Positions 4,937-25,084 of a DNA stretch of 38,162 bases are shown here, piece after piece. The notes beneath the pieces were generated by a model. The model ran no database searches, was not told where the DNA came from, and worked only from the letters and a program-made list of their open reading frames with translations. This DNA comes from Candidatus Zixiibacteriota bacterium (GTDB lineage Bacteria > Zixibacteria > MSB-5A5 > WJJR01 > JAJRUJ01). The stretch spans positions 1 through 38,162 of the forward strand of contig JAJRUJ010000078.1 of assembly GCA_024277855.1 (NCBI GenBank), given 5' to 3'. The position numbers were made by a program, and so were the translations under genes. Each line of letters begins with the position of its first letter. The stretch's first letter is position 1.

Positions 4937-7522
4937 ATGTCGCGTCGGCCACTGAGACTGTCCGCCCTCACAGTTTTATTCTGCCTAATTCCAATTATTG
5001 CCCTCGCCAGCTCGATGAGCCCTGAATTATATGGCCAACTCAAACAGGAAGGTCGACTTGACACCGTGGTCAATCGCCTGGAAGATGCCCGCAACCGGGG
5101 GTATTTTCACATTCCCCGGCCGTCAAGCGCCAAACCCCTTTATGAACCGTCCGCCGGCGATGTCGACACCATCCGCGTCCCGGTAATCCTGGTCGACTTC
5201 TCCGACCACGTGTACACCAATTACGGCGGTGCTCCGGAGGCGTCGGATTTCGACAGCACCTTGTTTTCCTGGGGCGAAATGCCGACCGGCAGCATGTCCG
5301 AGTGGTATTGGGAAAACTCTTATGAGACTTTTTTTGTGCATGGCGACGTGGTCGGCTGGTACCGGATGCCTCATACGTATGCCTATTACGTCAATGCGCA
5401 AAACGGCTTCGGCTCCTGTCCCAATTGCGCGCGCGAGATGGTCAAGGATGCGGTGTATGCCGCCGAGTTCGACCTCGATTATTCCGATTATGACCGCAAC
5501 AATGACGGTTGGGTCGACGGTATTTTTGTAGTGTTTGCCGGTTATGGCGCTGAACAGACCGGTAACGATAACGATATCTGGTCGCATCGTTCTAGTATCA
5601 ATCCGATCACTCTGAATGGCGTCAAGGTTTCTGACTATTCGGTCGAACCGGAAGCGCGTACCGACGGTCATATCACCGACATCGGGGTATTCTGCCATGA
5701 GTTTGGCCATGTCCTCGGGTTGCCCGATCTCTACGACACCGATTATTCCTCAAGCGGGATCGGGCGCTGGTCGATGATGGCCGGCGGGAGTTGGAATGGT
5801 AGTGGTGATACCCCGGCCCATTTCGACGCTTGGTGTAAAAAAGAACTGGGCTTTACCAATCCGGTCGTCATCACGGCCAACGAGGCGGGCAGCCTGATCC
5901 CGCAGGCCGAATCTGAACCGGTGGCCTACCGTCTCTGGACCCAGGGCCTGGGCGGCTCACAATATTTCCTCGTCGAAAATCGGCAGTTGACGCTTTTTGA
6001 TGCCGCCCTGCCCGGCGAAGGGTTGCTCATCTGGCACATCGATGAAACGCGCAGTGGAAACTCGGATGAAACCCATCCACTTGTCGGTCTCGAACAAGCC
6101 GACGGGTTGTTTCAACTGGAGGCCGGCGCCGGGAGTAACGGCGGCGACCCCTGGCCGGGGAATACCGACCACCGGGAGTTCAGCGATTTCTCGACCCCGA
6201 ATGCGCATAATTATAACGGCGACCTGACCGAAGTCGGTGTCCTCGAAATCTCCGACTCGGACAGTTTGATGACCGCCGATCTGGAAATCGTCTACGGCCG
6301 TCCCTGGCTGTTTGCGGACGGGTCTTCGTTTAACGATCCGCTCGGCGACAACAATGGACGCGCCGACCCCGGTGAGTCCGACGTTGAATTTATTTATTCG
6401 ATTACCAACCTCGGTGCTGATGCCCTCGGCCTGACTCTTGGGGTAACCTGCACCGACCCGGAGCTGGTTTTTTCGAGTTCAACGTCCAGTTACGGCGATG
6501 TGCTGAATAAACAGCCGGGAGATAATTCCGCCGATCCAATCATTTTCTCGATCGATGCGGACTTCCCGCCGACGGTTGTCGAGTTTGAAATGACCTGGTC
6601 AGCCAACGCGGGCGAATATGCGCTGGTGGAAACGCTCAAGGTCAACATCGGCCCACCGCAATTTCTCGTTGTCGACGATGATCAGGGCAACCAGAATGAG
6701 TATGAGCATTATTTTACCTATCTGCTTGATTCACTGCGCGCGCCACATATCATCTGGGGGAAAGACACGCTCTCGACGCCGCCGGCTGATACGCTGACCG
6801 AATACCCGGTAACGATCTGGTTTACCGGCGATGCTCGCTCCGAGGTACTCTCGGCGGCCGATGTAGCCAATCTCAAATCGTATCTCGACGGCGGGGGGCG
6901 GTTGTTGTTGACCGGGCAGGATATCGCCCAGGATCTGGCTGACGACGCCGACTCTACATTCCTGCGCGATTATCTCCATGTCCGCTATATCCCCGGCGAC
7001 CCGATCATCGCCGCCGACGGTGTGCCCGGTGATCCGATCGGGAATGGACAGTTTGTCTCGCTGGGCGGACCGGGCGGGGCGTCAAACCAGAACTCCCCGG
7101 ATATTATCGAACCGGTTGACGGCGCCGCCGAGGTCTGCTACACCTATTATAACTCCTCGGATGCTGCCGGTGTTCGAGTGGCCGACGGTAATTACAAGGC
7201 CGTGTTTCTCCCGTGGGGAATGGAAGCGATCGCCAACGACCTGGGGTATACGACGCGCGAAGAAGTCCTCGAACGCGTATTTCAGTGGCTGGGGTGGTTG
7301 AGCGGCAATTACGTTCCGGGAGACATTAATTCCGATCTGTCAATCAACCCGGTCGATGTGGTGCTGATTGTCAACTTCGTTTATAAAGGCGGCGCCGAAC
7401 CACTGGTCATGAACAGTGCCGATGTCAACGGCGACTGTGCCGCCAACCCGGTCGATGTTGTCTTCATGGTCAACTATGTCTACAAAAGTATTGGAACGCT
7501 GTTGCCGGGATGTATTGATTAA
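4937..7522 (+). CDS. secreted M6-family metallopeptidase with dockerin-like C-terminus
   Basis: 861 residues with a Sec signal peptide (about 1-25). The catalytic domain carries the zinc motif HEFGH at 254-258, continued as VLGLPDLYD, and a downstream GRWSMMAGG Met-turn-like segment. This is the immune-inhibitor-A type of M6 peptidase. From about 454 onward comes a tail: a beta-sandwich-like region (NLGADALGL...), then an alpha/beta domain with WFTGD and LDGGGRLLLTGQDIA (a GATase1-like Rossmann pattern), then two dockerin-type calcium-binding repeats (GDINSDLSINPVDVVL and ADVNGDCAANPVDVVF). The tail is shared with the neighbouring cysteine peptidase. The start is chosen by GGAAAGGGGAAA before ATG. 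Probably degrades extracellular protein; surface attachment through the dockerin is inference. Confidence 0.92.
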   Translation: MSRRPLRLSALTVLFCLIPIIALASSMSPELYGQLKQEGRLDTVVNRLEDARNRGYFHIPRPSSAKPLYEPSAGDVDTIRVPVILVDFSDHVYTNYGGAPEASDFDSTLFSWGEMPTGSMSEWYWENSYETFFVHGDVVGWYRMPHTYAYYVNAQNGFGSCPNCAREMVKDAVYAAEFDLDYSDYDRNNDGWVDGIFVVFAGYGAEQTGNDNDIWSHRSSINPITLNGVKVSDYSVEPEARTDGHITDIGVFCHEFGHVLGLPDLYDTDYSSSGIGRWSMMAGGSWNGSGDTPAHFDAWCKKELGFTNPVVITANEAGSLIPQAESEPVAYRLWTQGLGGSQYFLVENRQLTLFDAALPGEGLLIWHIDETRSGNSDETHPLVGLEQADGLFQLEAGAGSNGGDPWPGNTDHREFSDFSTPNAHNYNGDLTEVGVLEISDSDSLMTADLEIVYGRPWLFADGSSFNDPLGDNNGRADPGESDVEFIYSITNLGADALGLTLGVTCTDPELVFSSSTSSYGDVLNKQPGDNSADPIIFSIDADFPPTVVEFEMTWSANAGEYALVETLKVNIGPPQFLVVDDDQGNQNEYEHYFTYLLDSLRAPHIIWGKDTLSTPPADTLTEYPVTIWFTGDARSEVLSAADVANLKSYLDGGGRLLLTGQDIAQDLADDADSTFLRDYLHVRYIPGDPIIAADGVPGDPIGNGQFVSLGGPGGASNQNSPDIIEPVDGAAEVCYTYYNSSDAAGVRVADGNYKAVFLPWGMEAIANDLGYTTREEVLERVFQWLGWLSGNYVPGDINSDLSINPVDVVLIVNFVYKGGAEPLVMNSADVNGDCAANPVDVVFMVNYVYKSIGTLLPGCID

Positions 7523-7561
7523 CTGATTATGGCACAGTAAGATCGGTCGACAAAATTTTGT

Positions 7562-7594
7562 CCGGGGCATTCGTAAGGGTGCCCCGGTTTTCTT
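7562..7594 (+). terminator. rho-independent terminator after the M6 peptidase
   Basis: CCGGGGCA (7562-7569) pairs with TGCCCCGG (7580-7587), followed by TTTTCTT. Confidence 0.85.
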
Positions 7595-7636
7595 ATAATA
7601 TCCTGTCTGAATCTCCCAAATTCCCCATGAAACCTC

Positions 7637-7664
7637 TTGGTATTTATTGGGTTTATTATATATT
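7637..7664 (+). promoter_or_regulatory. candidate promoter of the C1A peptidase gene
   Basis: TTGGTA, 16 bases, TATATT, located between the preceding terminator and the start codon at 7753. It lies inside the longer open frame that begins at 7558, which supports the downstream start for the peptidase. Confidence 0.5.
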
Positions 7665-7752
7665 TAAGAGTGATATAGTGCCGAATATACCGCAACGCGG
7701 CGTGGTTGGATCGCCGCAAAAGAACATAACTATATGTGGAAAGAGGTGTTAC

Positions 7753-9906
7753 ATGTTGGGTTGGGGCCACAGGGGAAAGAATGCGCTTTTCTGTCTGATG
7801 ATCATCGCTCTTGTATCAGTTTCAACCACCAATTCACAAGCCGAATTGACTCCGAAAGATATAACTGCATTACAGGAAAGAGCCGCCGCCGAGGGCTGGA
7901 CATTTGAGGTCGGCGAAAACGACGCCACCAAATACTCTCTCGACCAATTATGTGGTTTCAAGATGCCGGATAACTGGCAGGAACTGGCCCCGATCACCAA
8001 ATTTTCCACCACCGCAGAGCTACCCTCCACCTACGACTGGCGCGACCTGACCGGCCTCCCGCCGGTGCGAAACCAAGGCGGTTGCGGCAGTTGCTGGGCT
8101 TTTTCCACAGTCGGCGCTCTCGAATGCGCGATCCGGATCAAGGACGGCGTGGATGTCAACCTCTCCGAACAGTGGCTGGTCAGTTGTAATACCAACGGCT
8201 GGGGTTGTAACGGCGGCTTTTTTGCTCACGATTACCATGAATGGAAAACCGATCCCTGCAACGATTTCGGCGCTGTCCTGGAAACTGATTTCCCCTATAC
8301 CGCCACCGACGCCGCCTGTAATTGTCCTTATCCCCATCCCTACACAATCGAAAACTGGGCGTATATTGGTAACTCATACAGTGTTCCCAGCGTGGACGCC
8401 ATCAAGCAGGCGATCATGGAATATGGCCCGGTGTCGGTCGCTGTCTACGCCAATAGCGCCATGCAGGCCTATAACGGCGGCATTTTCAACGGCTGTGAAT
8501 CGGCCGGGACCAATCATGCAGTCGTACTTGTCGGCTGGGACGACAACCAGGGAACCAATGGTGTTTGGTTTATGCGAAACTCCTGGGGCGCCGGCTGGGG
8601 TGAGGATGGCGGGTATATGCGCATCGGCTACGGCTGCTCGCGGATCGGGGAAGGGGCCTGTTATATCGATTACGGTCCCCTCGGCCCGATGGTCATGCAG
8701 GATGATTTGGTTGTGGATGACGGAGCAGGCGACGGCAATGGTCGTCCCGATCCCGGCGAAACGGGAATCGAAATCCTGGTTACACTGACCAATTTCGGCC
8801 AGGATGCCCTGGGGTTGACGATCACCGCCACGGCTTCCGATCCGGAAATTGTCTTCTCGAACGCCACCTCATCGTTGGGCGATGTCCTGCGCTGGGAACA
8901 GACCGACAACACCGCCGACCCGATTGCCTTCGCCGTCGACAGCGAATTTCCGCCGACTATCGTCCAGTTCGAGCTGACTTACAGCGCTAATGGCGGCGAC
9001 TATACCAAGGTTGAGACGTTTGATGTCAATGTCGGCCAGCCACAGTTTTTCATCGTCGATGACGACCAGGACAACAGCGGTAACTACGAACAATATTATA
9101 CCGCCGGTCCGTATGCCGATCGGATACCTTTCGTCGTCTGGGGCAAGGACAGTCTCGGTACGCCGCCGGCCGATACAATGGCGGCATACCCGTACACTAT
9201 CTGGTTTACCGGCGATCACCGTCTCGATGTTTTGAGTTCGGCCGACGTGACCGCATTAACCGATTTCCTCGACGGCGGCGGGCGGTTGTTCCTGACCGGA
9301 CAGGATATTGCCGCCGACTTATCTGATGACGCCGATTCGACATTCCTGGTTAATTACCTGCATGCCCGCTTTGCCGCCGGCGATCCGCTTATTATGACCA
9401 ACGGTGTGGCGGGAGACCCGATCACCGATGGTCATCTCGTGGCGATCAGCGGCTCGGGTGGGGCGGCAAACCAGTCCTCGCCGGATATTATCGTCCCCGT
9501 CGATACTCACGCCTCGACAATCTATACCTACTATGGATCAAGTGACGTCGCCGGGGTGCGCGTAACAGACGGTGACTACCGCCTTGTCTTCCTGCCGTGG
9601 GGTTTCGAGGGTGTGGCCGATGATCTGGGTTATACCACCCGCGCCGAGATTTTCGGGCCGATCATCGACTGGCTGAGTATTACCGGTACGACGTATGTCT
9701 GCGGGGATGTGAACTCGGATCTCGCGGTCAATCCGGTGGATGTTGTGCTGCTGGTCAATTTTGTCTATAAGGGCGGCGACCCGCCCGCCATTGTCAATTC
9801 CGGGGATGTCAACACCGACTGCGCGGTCAACCCGGTCGATGTCGTCTTCATGGTCAACTTTGTCTACAAAGGTGTCGGTACCCTATTGCCCGGATGCGTC
9901 GAATAG
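7753..9906 (+). CDS. secreted papain-like (C1A) cysteine peptidase with dockerin-like C-terminus
   Basis: 717 residues from ATG 7753, chosen over the open frame start at 7558 because AAAGAGGTG lies just upstream and the product then begins with a clean signal peptide (about 1-30). A short pro-region precedes a papain-fold domain with oxyanion Q108, catalytic C114 in GGCGSCWAFS, H255 in TNHAVVLVGW, and N276 in RNSWGAGWG; all four are present. After about residue 315 the protein carries the same tail as the M6 peptidase: beta-sandwich-like region, GGGRLFLTGQDIA alpha/beta domain, and two dockerin-type repeats (GDVNSDLAVNPVDVVL, GDVNTDCAVNPVDVVF). Its neighbour with a different catalytic head but the same tail suggests joint extracellular proteolysis or display on one scaffold (inference). 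Confidence 0.93.
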   Translation: MLGWGHRGKNALFCLMIIALVSVSTTNSQAELTPKDITALQERAAAEGWTFEVGENDATKYSLDQLCGFKMPDNWQELAPITKFSTTAELPSTYDWRDLTGLPPVRNQGGCGSCWAFSTVGALECAIRIKDGVDVNLSEQWLVSCNTNGWGCNGGFFAHDYHEWKTDPCNDFGAVLETDFPYTATDAACNCPYPHPYTIENWAYIGNSYSVPSVDAIKQAIMEYGPVSVAVYANSAMQAYNGGIFNGCESAGTNHAVVLVGWDDNQGTNGVWFMRNSWGAGWGEDGGYMRIGYGCSRIGEGACYIDYGPLGPMVMQDDLVVDDGAGDGNGRPDPGETGIEILVTLTNFGQDALGLTITATASDPEIVFSNATSSLGDVLRWEQTDNTADPIAFAVDSEFPPTIVQFELTYSANGGDYTKVETFDVNVGQPQFFIVDDDQDNSGNYEQYYTAGPYADRIPFVVWGKDSLGTPPADTMAAYPYTIWFTGDHRLDVLSSADVTALTDFLDGGGRLFLTGQDIAADLSDDADSTFLVNYLHARFAAGDPLIMTNGVAGDPITDGHLVAISGSGGAANQSSPDIIVPVDTHASTIYTYYGSSDVAGVRVTDGDYRLVFLPWGFEGVADDLGYTTRAEIFGPIIDWLSITGTTYVCGDVNSDLAVNPVDVVLLVNFVYKGGDPPAIVNSGDVNTDCAVNPVDVVFMVNFVYKGVGTLLPGCVE

Positions 9907-20846: not shown

Positions 20847-23156
20847 TCAATTCTCTGTCGGTGTCGGGGTCGGTATCTTTTCTTCCGAACCATTGGTGTC
20901 CTGACGAGCCGAGATATCAAAGCCCAATTCCTCACCGCCTTCTTTCAGGTCGATTCGTACCTGACAGTCACCGGCAAACTGACCGCGCAAAATTTCCTCG
21001 GCCAACGGGTCTTCCAGATATTTCTGGATTGCCCGGCGCAGCGGCCGAGCGCCGAGCGTCGGTTCATAACCCTTGTCGGCCAAAAACTGTCGCGCGTCGT
21101 CGGTCAGCGTAAACGAAATACCGCGTTCGGCCAGCCGCTTGGCAACGTCGCCCAACAACAGTTCGACAATCTTGATGATTTCCGACATGCCCAGTGCACG
21201 GAAGATGATTGTCTCGTCTATCCGGTTCAGCAGTTCCGGGTTGAAGAGTTTTTTCATCTCGCCGACGACTTTCTTTTTCATATTCTCGTGGTCGCCCTCA
21301 ACTTGTTCCTGGGCAAACCCGACCGTCTTTCCGTCGTGAATTTCCCGTGTGCCGATATTCGAAGTCATGATCACGACGGTATTCTTAAAATCGACTTTGC
21401 GGCCGAAGCTGTCGGTCAGAGTGCCGTCGTCGAGCAGCTGCAACAGGATGTTATACACCTCCGGATGCGCTTTTTCAATTTCATCAAGCAGAACCACCGA
21501 ATACGGTTTGCGCCGCACTTTCTCGGTCAGTTGTCCGCCTTCTTCATAACCGACGTACCCCGGAGGCGCCCCGATCAACCGCGAGACGGCGAACTTTTCG
21601 AGGTGTTCGGACATATCGATCCGCACCAGCGCATCGGTATCCTCGAATAAAAATTCCGCCAATACCCGGGCCAGTTCAGTCTTACCGACGCCGGTCGGGC
21701 CGAGGAAAACAAACGAGCCGATCGGCCGACGCGGATCGCCGAGTCCGGCTCGTGAACGACGGATTGCGCGGGTGAGGGCCTTGATCGCCTCTTTCTGTCC
21801 GACGATTTTTCGGTTGAGTTCCTCCTCCATCCGGATCAACCGGCGAGATTCTTTCTCTTCCAGGCGGAACAACGGGATCCCGGTAATCACCGAAACGACC
21901 TCCGCGACATCTTCGCCGGTCAATGTATAGGTCTTCTTCTCGCGGTCTTCCTCCCACTTGCGTTTCTGTTCCTCAAGATCGTCGCGGAGAAATTTGAGCT
22001 TGTCGCGCAACTGCGCCGCTTTTTCAAATTCCTGGTTCTTGACCGCCTGTTCCTTCTCGGTAGCGGTGCGTTCGATCTCTGCTTCCAGGTCGGAAAACGA
22101 TTCGGGTCGGGTATACGAATTCAAATGTGCGCGCGAGCCGGCTTCATCGATTATGTCGATTGCTTTGTCCGGTTGATATTTCCCGGTAATATACCGGTCG
22201 GAGAGTTTGACCGCCTCGTCGATTGCCTCGTCGGAGATTAGAATTTTATGGTGTTCTTCATAGCGCGAGCGCAAACCGCGAAGGATCTCAACGGTATCTT
22301 TTTTCGACGGCGGCTCGACCATCACCGTCTGGAACCGGCGGTCGAGTGCGCCGTCTTTTTCGATATACTTGCGATATTCATTGAACGTCGTCGCGCCGAT
22401 GCACTGTAATTCGCCACGGGCCAGGGACGGTTTAAAAATATTCGACGCGTCGAGCGATCCCTCGGCGCCCCCGGCGCCGACGATAGTGTGCAACTCATCG
22501 ATAAAGATGATCACGTCTTTGGAGTTGACAATCTCATTTAATACCGCTTTGAGCCGTTCTTCGAACTGCCCGCGATACTTGGTGCCGGCGACCAGCGAGG
22601 CCATATCCAGCGTAACCAGTCGCCGATTTTCCAGTGTCTGCGGCACCTGGCCGGCAACGATTCGCTGGGCCAGTCCCTCGGCAATCGCGGTCTTGCCCAC
22701 GCCAGGTTCGCCGATCAATACCGGGTTGTTTTTCTTCCGGCGTGAGAGGATCTGGCTGACCCGTTCGATTTCGTGGTCGCGGCCAATAATCGGATCGAGC
22801 GCACTCCGACGGGCCATTTCGGTCAGGTCGCGGCCAAAATGGTCCAACGCCGGTGTCTTGGATTTCTTGCGCTTCTTGCCGTAGGACGACGGTTTGCCGC
22901 TGTTGATGTTTTTTAATTCTTCGTAGGCCTCTTTGTAATCGATATCATACATGGACAGGACCTGCGCCGCCACCCCCTCTTCGTCCTTCAGCAGGGCCAG
23001 GAGGATATGCTCTGTGTCGATATCTTTGGACTTGAGCGCCCGTGCTTCCTGTCCGGAAACTTCGAGTGTTTTCTTGGCCCGTGCGGTGAGGGGAAGTTGT
23101 CCCATTGTCATCGTGCCGCCGGATGGTTGGACCACTTCTTCAACAGACTGTTTCAA
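20847..23156 (-). CDS. clpC: ClpC-type AAA+ unfoldase, main part (downstream of an in-frame TAA)
   Basis: 769 codons that read on, in the same frame, from the 57-codon N-terminal piece at 23157-23330; only one TAA separates them. This part holds the rest of the Clp-N domain (second repeat DTEHILLALLKDEEGVAAQVL), D1 with Walker A GEPGVGKT and Walker B IIFIDELH, a UVR-containing middle region (EKEQAVKNQEFEKAAQLRD), and D2 with GPTGVGKTELA and VVLLDEIEKAH. ClpC unfolds substrates for ClpP and, in Firmicutes, takes proteins marked with phosphoarginine by McsB. The piece could be made by re-initiation at TTG, the codon right after TAA, but without the first Clp-N repeat. The total length without the stop (about 826) is normal for ClpC. 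Confidence 0.93.
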   Translation of the reverse strand: MKQSVEEVVQPSGGTMTMGQLPLTARAKKTLEVSGQEARALKSKDIDTEHILLALLKDEEGVAAQVLSMYDIDYKEAYEELKNINSGKPSSYGKKRKKSKTPALDHFGRDLTEMARRSALDPIIGRDHEIERVSQILSRRKKNNPVLIGEPGVGKTAIAEGLAQRIVAGQVPQTLENRRLVTLDMASLVAGTKYRGQFEERLKAVLNEIVNSKDVIIFIDELHTIVGAGGAEGSLDASNIFKPSLARGELQCIGATTFNEYRKYIEKDGALDRRFQTVMVEPPSKKDTVEILRGLRSRYEEHHKILISDEAIDEAVKLSDRYITGKYQPDKAIDIIDEAGSRAHLNSYTRPESFSDLEAEIERTATEKEQAVKNQEFEKAAQLRDKLKFLRDDLEEQKRKWEEDREKKTYTLTGEDVAEVVSVITGIPLFRLEEKESRRLIRMEEELNRKIVGQKEAIKALTRAIRRSRAGLGDPRRPIGSFVFLGPTGVGKTELARVLAEFLFEDTDALVRIDMSEHLEKFAVSRLIGAPPGYVGYEEGGQLTEKVRRKPYSVVLLDEIEKAHPEVYNILLQLLDDGTLTDSFGRKVDFKNTVVIMTSNIGTREIHDGKTVGFAQEQVEGDHENMKKKVVGEMKKLFNPELLNRIDETIIFRALGMSEIIKIVELLLGDVAKRLAERGISFTLTDDARQFLADKGYEPTLGARPLRRAIQKYLEDPLAEEILRGQFAGDCQVRIDLKEGGEELGFDISARQDTNGSEEKIPTPTPTEN

Positions 23157-23330
23157 TTAGGCGAGTTCGAGGCCGATATTGGTAATAATATCTATCGCCC
23201 GGCCTTCACCCAACCGAATCAGTCCGAGGAGAAGATGTTCGGTCCCGATGTAATCATGCCGCAGTCGAGCGGCTTCATCACGGGCATACTCGATGGCTTT
23301 GCGAGCAGCTTCGGTAAACATCTCGTTCAT
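23157..23330 (-). CDS. clpC: ClpC N-terminal fragment ending at an in-frame TAA
   Basis: 57 codons beginning MNEMFTEAARKAIEYA, containing the first Clp-N repeat GTEHLLLGLIRLGEG and ending GLELA before TAA 23157-23159. In ClpC homologues this point reads on as G-V-D-L-E-K-V-R-Q. The next codons here (TTG AAA CAG, i.e. LKQ) continue that alignment with the stop exactly in the place of the usual Lys, so the gene is interrupted by one nonsense codon, not an indel. ATG 23330 is preferred over GTG 23339 because GGGGGTGG lies 5 bases before it. Confidence 0.88.
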   Translation of the reverse strand: MNEMFTEAARKAIEYARDEAARLRHDYIGTEHLLLGLIRLGEGRAIDIITNIGLELA

Positions 23331-23436
23331 TCGTACCACCCCCGTGGGTCCTGCGCTGCGTTCCCTGCGCCCGCCTCATGCGGACCGGTTCCTTCTTACT
23401 ATATCGGTTGGCCGGGCGTCGATGTTTGACAGCTTT

Positions 23437-24558
23437 TTAGGCCTGGCCGGCCGATTCGTCGGACTCCTCCGACAAATCCGCAATAACGTTGTCCATTTCC
23501 CGGATTGCCGGCCAGAGCTTTTCCCGGACCAGCGCGGCTCGGGCAATGTCGCGATCTTCCGGCGACATCCGGCGCCCCATCAAACGCTGCAAGTGGGCCG
23601 GCTGGCCCGAAAGCAATAATTCGTTGACCATCGCAAAACTAATACCCTTGACGATCCCACCGGCAATCCCCAGCCGGACCGCAGAGAGCAGGTTCATCAC
23701 TTCCTCAGAAGTCAGCACTCGCGCGAGGGCCAGGATGCCCAGCGCCCGCCAGATTTTGTCCTTGATCTGATGCGGCGCATCACCAAAAAGTTTATTGCGT
23801 GCCTCCTCTTCATAGGCGATCAACTGACGGGTGATTTTCTCCAATGATTCGATCAGGTCCTCTTCGGACCGTCCCAGCGTCGTTTGATTCGAAATCTGGA
23901 ACAAGTTGCCCAAAACGTCCGACCCCTCGCCATAAAACCCGCGGACGGTCAGCCCGATTTTGCCGACCTGGGACAACACATTATCCATGTCGCGGGTCAA
24001 CACCAAGCCCGGTAGATGAATCAAGACCGAGGCGCGCAAGCCGGTACCGACATTGGTCGGGCAGGCGGTCAGATAACCCAGTCGCGGGTCGGTGTCGTAC
24101 TCCAGCACCGTGCTGAGCTTTTCGTCGATTTCTGTCGCGGTGGCCATCGCCTGGCGGATATTCATCCCCGAACCGACCGATTGAATCCGCAGATGATCTT
24201 CCTCATTAATCATTAAACTGGCGGTTTCATCATGGGTTACGAAAAGTCCGCGTATGTTATCGTCACGCAAAAACTCCGGGCTGATCAGATGGCGCTCGAT
24301 CAAAATTTCGCGCGAAAACTCATCGATTTGATCGGACATAAAATATGCGCCGGAATCGGCCACGCCGGTTTTCTCGGTAGCCACCTGGATCAGGTCCACC
24401 ACTTTCTGGTGTTCCTCGATCCCGGCTCGCTGGGGATAAAGATGATGGGCGATATTACGCGCCAACCGCACACGGCTGGAAAGCACGATGTCCGCCCGTT
24501 CTCCTTCGTCGGAGAGCCAGGCCGCCGGCTGATTACCCAAATCTTCGAGTGTCTTCAT
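23437..24558 (-). CDS. mcsB: protein-arginine kinase McsB
   Basis: 373 residues from ATG 24558, 4 bases after the mcsA stop; the frame is open to 24591, but that start would overlap mcsA. McsB belongs to the ATP:guanido phosphotransferases and phosphorylates arginines on proteins, marking them for ClpC. Family signatures are DIVLSSRVRLARN near the N-terminus, the nucleotide/active-site Cys region ACPTNVGTGLRASV, and RGFYGEGSDVLGN. It lacks the creatine-kinase N-terminal domain, as expected for McsB. It sits between mcsA and clpC in the same order as in Firmicutes. Confidence 0.95.
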   Translation of the reverse strand: MKTLEDLGNQPAAWLSDEGERADIVLSSRVRLARNIAHHLYPQRAGIEEHQKVVDLIQVATEKTGVADSGAYFMSDQIDEFSREILIERHLISPEFLRDDNIRGLFVTHDETASLMINEEDHLRIQSVGSGMNIRQAMATATEIDEKLSTVLEYDTDPRLGYLTACPTNVGTGLRASVLIHLPGLVLTRDMDNVLSQVGKIGLTVRGFYGEGSDVLGNLFQISNQTTLGRSEEDLIESLEKITRQLIAYEEEARNKLFGDAPHQIKDKIWRALGILALARVLTSEEVMNLLSAVRLGIAGGIVKGISFAMVNELLLSGQPAHLQRLMGRRMSPEDRDIARAALVREKLWPAIREMDNVIADLSEESDESAGQA

Positions 24559-24562
24559 CGTC

Positions 24563-25084
24563 TCATCCCGTTCGGTCGACCACAGGTTCACGCGGTCTCA
24601 GTGCACGGAGACGGTCGCGGATCACCGCCGCCTCCTCAAAGTTCTCATCTTCGATGGCGCGGCGGAGTTCCTCGCGCAATTTGATCTCTTCGGCCAGCGG
24701 CGCCATTTTCCCCGTACGCGAGCGCGGAGTGCGCCCCCGGTGAATCGTCGAACCGTGAATGCGGCGCAAAAGGTCTTCGAGCGGTTTGTCGAATGCCTTA
24801 TAGCACCCGCCACAGCCAAATCGTCCGATTTTGGTAAATTCAACGAATTTCATCCCGCACGCGGGACACTCCAGCTCGCTCATCGCGCCGGTGGCATCGG
24901 CGGTCGCTTCTTTGACCATCCCGGCCAGAAACTCGGCCAGCGGAAAAGGGACATCTTCCAGCGGGTTGCCAAAGCCTTTTTTCCGCGCGCAGTCCTTACA
25001 CAGATTAAGTTGGACTTTTTTGCCGTCCTTAGTCTGGGTCAGGTGAACGTTGGCTTCATTGCTGCCGCAATTTTCACATTTCAT
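24563..25084 (-). CDS. mcsA: McsA, zinc-finger activator of McsB
   Basis: 173 residues from ATG 25084 (MKCENCGSNEANVH); the open frame begins at 25168, but this start matches McsA N-termini and follows GGGGGTG. It has four CxxC pairs: CENC, CKDC, CPAC and CGGC. The C-terminal UVR motif LREELRRAIEDENFEEAAVIRDRL resembles the one in ClpC's middle domain. McsA activates the McsB kinase and links it to ClpC. It is first in mcsA-mcsB-clpC. The Firmicutes repressor gene ctsR, normally first, is absent. Confidence 0.92.
   Translation of the reverse strand: MKCENCGSNEANVHLTQTKDGKKVQLNLCKDCARKKGFGNPLEDVPFPLAEFLAGMVKEATADATGAMSELECPACGMKFVEFTKIGRFGCGGCYKAFDKPLEDLLRRIHGSTIHRGRTPRSRTGKMAPLAEEIKLREELRRAIEDENFEEAAVIRDRLRALRPREPVVDRTG

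Follow-up and report, generated by a model that had tools for sequence, protein, structure and literature searches.

Exchangeable heads and C-termini of secreted peptidases in Zixibacteria suggest a cellulosome-like display system

Dockerins and cohesins occur widely outside cellulosomes, for the most part without an explanation. The nearest published counterpart of what is described here is a cellulosome-like dockerin/cohesin system proposed in silico for Candidatus Stygibacter of the Cloacimonadota (PMC8542988). Its likeness to the Zixibacteria described here lies in enzymes with signal peptides, S8 and C25 peptidases among them, that carry C-terminal dockerins, and in a cohesin-bearing protein that a T9SS-type C-terminal domain would attach. 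Particular to Stygibacter are a single scaffoldin of 3,755 aa that bears cohesins in tandem along with CBMs, and glycoside hydrolases. In contrast, the cohesin carriers here are of low valency, some with lipobox-like N-termini; the proteins read were mainly peptidases; and a shared ThuA-like accessory module and the repeated exchange of dockerins for T9SS tails set these bacteria apart. The type I dockerins of clostridial cellulosomes (3ul4, CelS 2mte and 1daq) have two calcium loops with D1/N3/D5/N9/D12, as do those described here, and cohesin specificity has been traced in published work to dockerin positions 10 and 11 (PMC8063739). The secreted deacetylase Agd3 contains a domain of the GATase1/ThuA fold that lacks the catalytic triad and was described by its authors as a carbohydrate-binding module (PMC7229062).

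The window, which is the whole stretch of 38,162 nucleotides that was analyzed, is contig C66 of a 3.07 Mb genome (G000 in a comparison of 132 Zixibacteria genomes) and contains two adjacent peptidase genes (Table 1). The M6 gene product scored 232.8 bits against TIGR03296 (cut-off 110.8) and has the zinc motif HExxHxxGxxD as HEFGHVLGLPD at residue 254. The C1A gene product matched PF00112 with 172.6 bits and has all three catalytic residues of its family. The two catalytic heads are unrelated, each belonging to a family of its own (Peptidase_M6/TIGR03296 and papain-family C1). Translation of the C1A gene probably starts at the ATG at 7753, which follows an AAAGAGG and gives the protein a signal-peptide-like N-terminus, and not at the TTG at 7558 that opens the mechanically called frame (7558-9906). 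Elsewhere in the window (20847-24591), a ClpC-like AAA+ protein adjoins a protein with an ATP:guanido phosphotransferase domain, a pair that resembles the McsB-ClpC arrangement of the arginine-phosphate pathway; the host lineage has an outer membrane.

Table 1. Features of the two peptidase genes in the window, and related or potentially interacting proteins encoded on other contigs of the source genome.
Feature	Location	Strand	Details
M6 (immune-inhibitor-A type) metallopeptidase gene	4937..7522	+	861 aa; PF05547, 4.6e-27; TIGR03296
M6 N-terminus, signal-peptide-like	within 4937..7522	+	MSRRPLRLSALTVLFCLIPIIALASS
M6 catalytic head	5177..6256	+	residues 81-440
M6 beta-sandwich module	6302..6655	+	residues 456-573; all-beta in AlphaFold2 model
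M6 ThuA/GATase1-fold alpha/beta module	6656..7291	+	residues 574-785
M6 type I dockerin	7307..7480	+	PF00404
M6 dockerin calcium loops	7322-7357; 7421-7456	+	DINSDLSINPVD; DVNGDCAANPVD
C1A (papain-family) cysteine peptidase gene	7753..9906	+	PF00112, 1.6e-50; probable ATG start at 7753
C1A catalytic head	8020..8661	+	catalytic Cys, His and Asn in QGGCGSCWAF, NHAV and NSWG
C1A beta-sandwich module	8686..9039	+	BLASTP match to M6 tail
C1A ThuA/GATase1-fold alpha/beta module	9040..9675	+	without Cys
C1A type I dockerin	9697..9870	+	PF00404
C1A dockerin calcium loops	9706-9741; 9805-9840	+	DVNSDLAVNPVD; DVNTDCAVNPVD
M1 peptidase, sandwich, alpha/beta, dockerin	contig C67		
Second C1A, sandwich, alpha/beta, TSP3 repeats	contig C70		TSP3 instead of dockerin
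More distant M6, sandwich, alpha/beta, dockerin	contig C92		
M6, sandwich, alpha/beta, FlgD_ig/T9SS tail	contig C94, L070:5695-8510		broken frame
Cohesin with T9SS-type C-terminal domain	contigs C16, C129		
Cohesin proteins with lipobox-like N-termini	contigs C94, C52		LLAC; LLAGWGC (by eye)
Cohesin+dockerin protein	contig C93, L074:3901-4851		317 aa
Further cohesin protein	contig C129		

The tails of the two gene products aligned without gaps over 406 residues, of which 246 (61%) were identical (530 bits, E=0, BLASTP of the two proteins); the match spans residues 456-861 of M6 (6302-7519) and 377-782 of C1A (8686-9903). A preliminary description of the locus had placed a shared tail of about 400 residues on these unrelated heads, and the alignment bore this out, its ends lying within a few codons of where they had been put. 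The tail consists of three modules: a beta-sandwich of 118 aa, an alpha/beta domain of about 212 aa and one type I dockerin. What had been taken for a dockerin pair is a dockerin indeed, but a single one with two calcium-loop repeats (PF00404). The comparison of silent sites proposed in the same description gave an NG86 dS of about 2, close to saturation, with 66 of 131 fourfold sites identical, where codon use would lead one to expect 51, and the same codon at 113 of 241 positions against 104 expected. The likeness of the tails is therefore old and held by selection, and recent duplication or conversion was rejected as the whole explanation of the match.

The alpha/beta domain was modelled with AlphaFold2 at a pLDDT of 89 and a pTM of 0.90. 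The best matches in the PDB were the ThuA-like structures 4jqs and 4pxy and GATase1 structures such as 2d7j, in agreement with the earlier guess of a ThuA or GATase1 fold; TM-scores were 0.53-0.61 when normalized to the length of the query and 0.47-0.69 when normalized to that of the target. A nucleophile Cys of the Cys-His-Glu triad was not found in the C1A domain and no Cys is invariant across the family, indicating that the domain is no conventional, active glutamine amidotransferase. A set of polar and aromatic residues that hardly vary (D10, W35, W56, Q89-D90, N145-Q146, S148, D150, E191, and R202) suggests a conserved binding site, and the domain probably binds a ligand or substrate in a non-catalytic role. 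Agd3 is similar in having the GATase1/ThuA fold within a secreted multidomain enzyme without a Cys-His-Glu triad, and 4JQS is among the nearest structures for both. The two differ in that no shared sequence family is known and in that W35, Q89-D90, N145-Q146, E191, and R202 are near-invariant residues of the Zixibacteria module's own.

The tail was not confined to the two neighbors when other carriers were searched for. Six proteins of the source genome have the sandwich and alpha/beta pair, on three M6, two C1A and one M1 head. The M6 gene on contig C94 lies in two overlapping frames, reflecting a frameshift, a pseudogene or an assembly error. A gingipain-like C25 peptidase (L068:4566-7508, contig C70) ends in an NPVDVV dockerin and has no T9SS sorting domain; its gene directly adjoins that of the C1A homolog with TSP3 repeats, a second tandem of unrelated peptidases.

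Matches to the alpha/beta profile were detected in 104 of the 132 Zixibacteria genomes, and relatives occur outside the phylum in Gemmatimonadota, Eisenbacteria and Calditrichota. Heads and tails were counted in 71 distinct alpha/beta proteins, taken from the best profile matches. M6 heads were the most numerous (40), followed by C1A (5), C25 (2), and M1 (1); the remainder had other heads, which by Pfam included C10 (3), C39-like, beta-propeller and PfpI/FG-GAP. A dockerin formed the C-terminus of 44 proteins, and a T9SS sorting domain (Por_Secre_tail/FlgD_ig) occupied the same place behind the alpha/beta module in 25; two proteins had neither and none had both. The alpha/beta tree required at least 11 switches between dockerin and T9SS tails, 8 when M6 proteins alone were counted, and at least seven changes of head. 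The window M6 and C1A gene products end in a dockerin and have no T9SS sorting domain, which is present in the homologs L070, L136, and L154. Across the source genome, 46 frames had a dockerin and 32 had FlgD_ig, with an overlap of one protein.

The head-swapping put forward in the preliminary description is thus real and wider than it suggested, extending to M6, C1A, M1, C10, C25, C39-like and other heads. Its view of the 400 residues as one targeting module did not hold: the sandwich and alpha/beta pair and the dockerin were exchanged independently among homologs, 25 of the 71 having T9SS tails and one C1A having TSP3 repeats, and a single targeting module was rejected. Among the tail modules, the dockerin alone is a plausible targeting part. 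The exchange of dockerins for T9SS C-terminal domains in related proteins argues that the two are alternative modes of holding a protein at the surface. Under ordinary domain shuffling, by contrast, the modules would be generic accessories bound for no shared location, and the neighbors would resemble each other merely as old paralogs. Such shuffling would account for alpha/beta modules behind beta-propeller and other non-peptidase heads, for their presence outside the phylum and for the near-saturated silent sites, but the wording of the dockerins and their distribution with cohesins argue otherwise.

The window dockerins scored 28.8 and 27.1 bits against PF00404 (cut-off 22.9) and matched solved dockerins at E-values of 5e-6 to 1e-5 by sequence comparison. 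Each has two calcium-binding F-hand repeats, with the loop D.N.D...N..D occurring twice in both M6 and C1A. The wording NPVDVVxxVNxVYK, noted earlier as unusual, is lineage-specific but not peculiar to the two genes. It is the dockerin style of the whole genome: Pro-Val stands at positions 10-11 in 49 of 72 repeats, and in both repeats of 22 of the 36 dockerins. The same positions are mostly Pro-Leu in the sister genus, Ile-Leu in family f10, Ser-Ala in f15 and Val-Gly in f8. When 14 dockerin positions were compared one by one in four families, the largest contrast was at positions 10 and 11, where identity was 0.79 and 0.77 within groups and 0.02 and 0.04 between families, values that none of 2000 label shuffles reached. 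Calcium ligands 9 and 12 and positions 18, 19, and 22 had almost no such contrast, and positions 20 and 21 were intermediate. Dockerins of the source genome and of the sister-genus genome G124 differed mainly at position 11, not 10.

A contrast at positions 10-11 that runs in step across unrelated proteins is not expected of a module that merely stabilizes the C-terminus, and neutral shuffling would not be expected to leave these positions nearly uniform over dozens of unrelated proteins per genome. The uniformity could partly reflect duplication of tails within genomes. As in clostridial dockerins, the recognition positions match in both repeats in most copies of the source genome. Unlike the clostridial dockerins, those of the source genome have Pro-Val as recognition residues, peptidases rather than cellulases as cargo and a host with an outer membrane, and they include a subtype with a C-terminal GC(V/I)(E/D) and a Cys in the second repeat. 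This Cys lies in the second calcium loop (e.g., window 7421-7519 and 9805-9903, each span including the C-terminal motif), and a disulfide is possible. The subtype is common to M6, C1A, M1, a protein on contig C106 and the sister-genus M6.

Candidate partners bearing cohesins, which the preliminary description had recommended looking for, are present: PF00963 gave seven matches on six proteins of the source genome. With other tail carriers and these cohesins in the genome, the outcome that would have spoken against the description, a tail limited to the two proteins and no cohesin, did not arise. The dockerin of the cohesin+dockerin protein carries the genome's own residues at positions 10-11, and the protein could be an adaptor or self-assemble. 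A cohesin profile built from the genome itself was applied to it and to 17 other genomes, with weaker matches taken down to E 0.01; it gave 17 matches in the source genome, where Pfam gave 7. Many cohesins of Zixibacteria seem to escape the Pfam model. The weaker profile matches may be other folds, and the cohesin-like domains might be nothing more specific than Ig-like modules. Multi-cohesin scaffoldins were not found by Pfam or the profile in the source genome: its proteins carry at most two recognized cohesins each, and nothing there looks like a large scaffold. An 1818-aa frame of G124 (contig C20) has four profile matches. Dockerin enzymes and cohesin proteins do occur together in one genome here, as in a cellulosome-type complex, with dockerins in 46 frames and cohesins in several proteins; the dockerin frames outnumber the cohesins (7 by Pfam or up to 17 by profile).

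Dockerins were detected in 127 of the 132 genomes, all of which also have cohesins, 118 by Pfam and the remaining nine by the own-genome profile. Pfam counts had made some genomes appear rich in dockerins and devoid of cohesins (G025-G027 and others), an exception that was dismissed when the profile detected cohesins in all nine. The five dockerin-less genomes (G006, G007, and G120-G122, of families f4 and f19) had no cohesin by Pfam or profile. This joint absence is a natural experiment in favor of dependence between dockerins and cohesins, and it rests on two independent clades, with one f4 genome 52% complete. Genomes of f19 keep alpha/beta proteins with T9SS tails (G120, G121, and G123). 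Since neutral shuffling would not be expected to produce the joint presence and absence of dockerins and cohesins, we consider ordinary domain shuffling an improbable account of the tails.

The PorU sortase of the source genome scored 640 bits against a cut-off of 420 and SprA was above its curated cut-off, so that a type IX secretion system is likely present; for a type II secretion route through GspD, two GspD-like secretin matches were both below the family cut-off. The window peptidases depart from this system in ending in a dockerin. A dockerin might itself be an alternative signal for export or retention, read for instance by the type IX or another system, with the cohesins being unrelated Ig-like domains. 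Dockerins and T9SS tails do occupy the same C-terminal place, have been exchanged for one another 11 times or more and are found together in hardly any protein, and the excess of dockerins over cohesins points the same way. Yet genomes without dockerins have no cohesins either while T9SS-tailed alpha/beta proteins persist, turnover is greatest at the cohesin-contact positions 10-11 and not at the calcium ligands, and one protein carries both dockerin and T9SS tail. An export or retention signal is, in our judgment, an unlikely role for the dockerin.

The match between the two neighbors may have a history of its own. The C1A gene has a positional ortholog in G124, likewise beside lpxD, skp and bamA, and the M6 homolog of that genome lies elsewhere, indicating that the adjacency of M6 and C1A is special to the window lineage. 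The heads are orthologous between the genera (74% identical for M6 and 64% for C1A), yet the C1A alpha/beta domain is only 52% identical between genera and 62-64% identical to paralogs within the window genome. The dockerins of the window C1A and M6 share 73% of their residues, whereas that of the G124 C1A ortholog is laid out differently. A clade of the two C1A tails was rejected by the AU test (p=0.03), as would follow if the C1A tail had been replaced, after the genera split, by an alpha/beta domain and dockerin from the M6 gene or a local paralog. A clade of the M6 tail pair was not rejected (p=0.12), the tree within the family is poorly resolved, and near-saturated silent sites make such an event undatable. 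A model in which every tail of the two genera evolves cleanly in concert was set aside, the AU tests supporting it only in part. Tail replacement is plausible rather than proven, somewhat short of an even chance in our estimate; it would add to the main model and explain why the two neighbors match.

Drawing on the computed homology, module boundaries, exchange of heads and tails, alpha/beta fold, dockerin wording and joint occurrence with cohesins, the reading that we prefer, with a probability of roughly 0.6, is a cellulosome-like display system for peptidases that is interchangeable with T9SS anchoring. The M6 and C1A gene products would be Sec-exported peptidases built of interchangeable parts, in which the beta-sandwich and the non-catalytic ThuA/GATase1-fold domain behind the head form an accessory pair, the latter probably serving to bind substrate or ligand. 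The calcium-dependent C-terminal dockerin most likely tethers the enzyme by binding a cohesin of an envelope protein. Candidate carriers of such cohesins are lipoproteins, T9SS-anchored proteins and the cohesin+dockerin adaptor, and the dockerin-tailed enzymes would have to cross the outer membrane before docking at the surface. Positions 10-11 of each repeat would act as the key, nearly uniform within a genome and turning over between families. Whether this extends to peptidase display throughout the phylum, with dozens of exported proteins per genome sharing a private key, dockerins swapping with T9SS tails and the ThuA-fold module traveling with the heads, we judge to be evenly balanced; positions 10-11 would then presumably be replaced between families together with the cohesins.

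As far as the open literature was searched, three elements are new: the exchange of dockerins with T9SS tails, the ThuA-fold module that accompanies the heads and the lineage code of two residues. That search, which covered open papers, found no work joining Zixibacteria with dockerins or with type IX secretion, and none under the name Zixiibacteriota among the matches listed. The Zixibacteria case ties non-cellulosomal dockerins and cohesins both to a defined class of enzymes, the secreted peptidases, and to anchoring by T9SS. Testable handles are offered by a lineage-specific two-residue code carried by dozens of proteins per genome and by the natural knock-out clades f4 and f19. A display system of this kind would help explain how these uncultured bacteria keep proteases at their surface.
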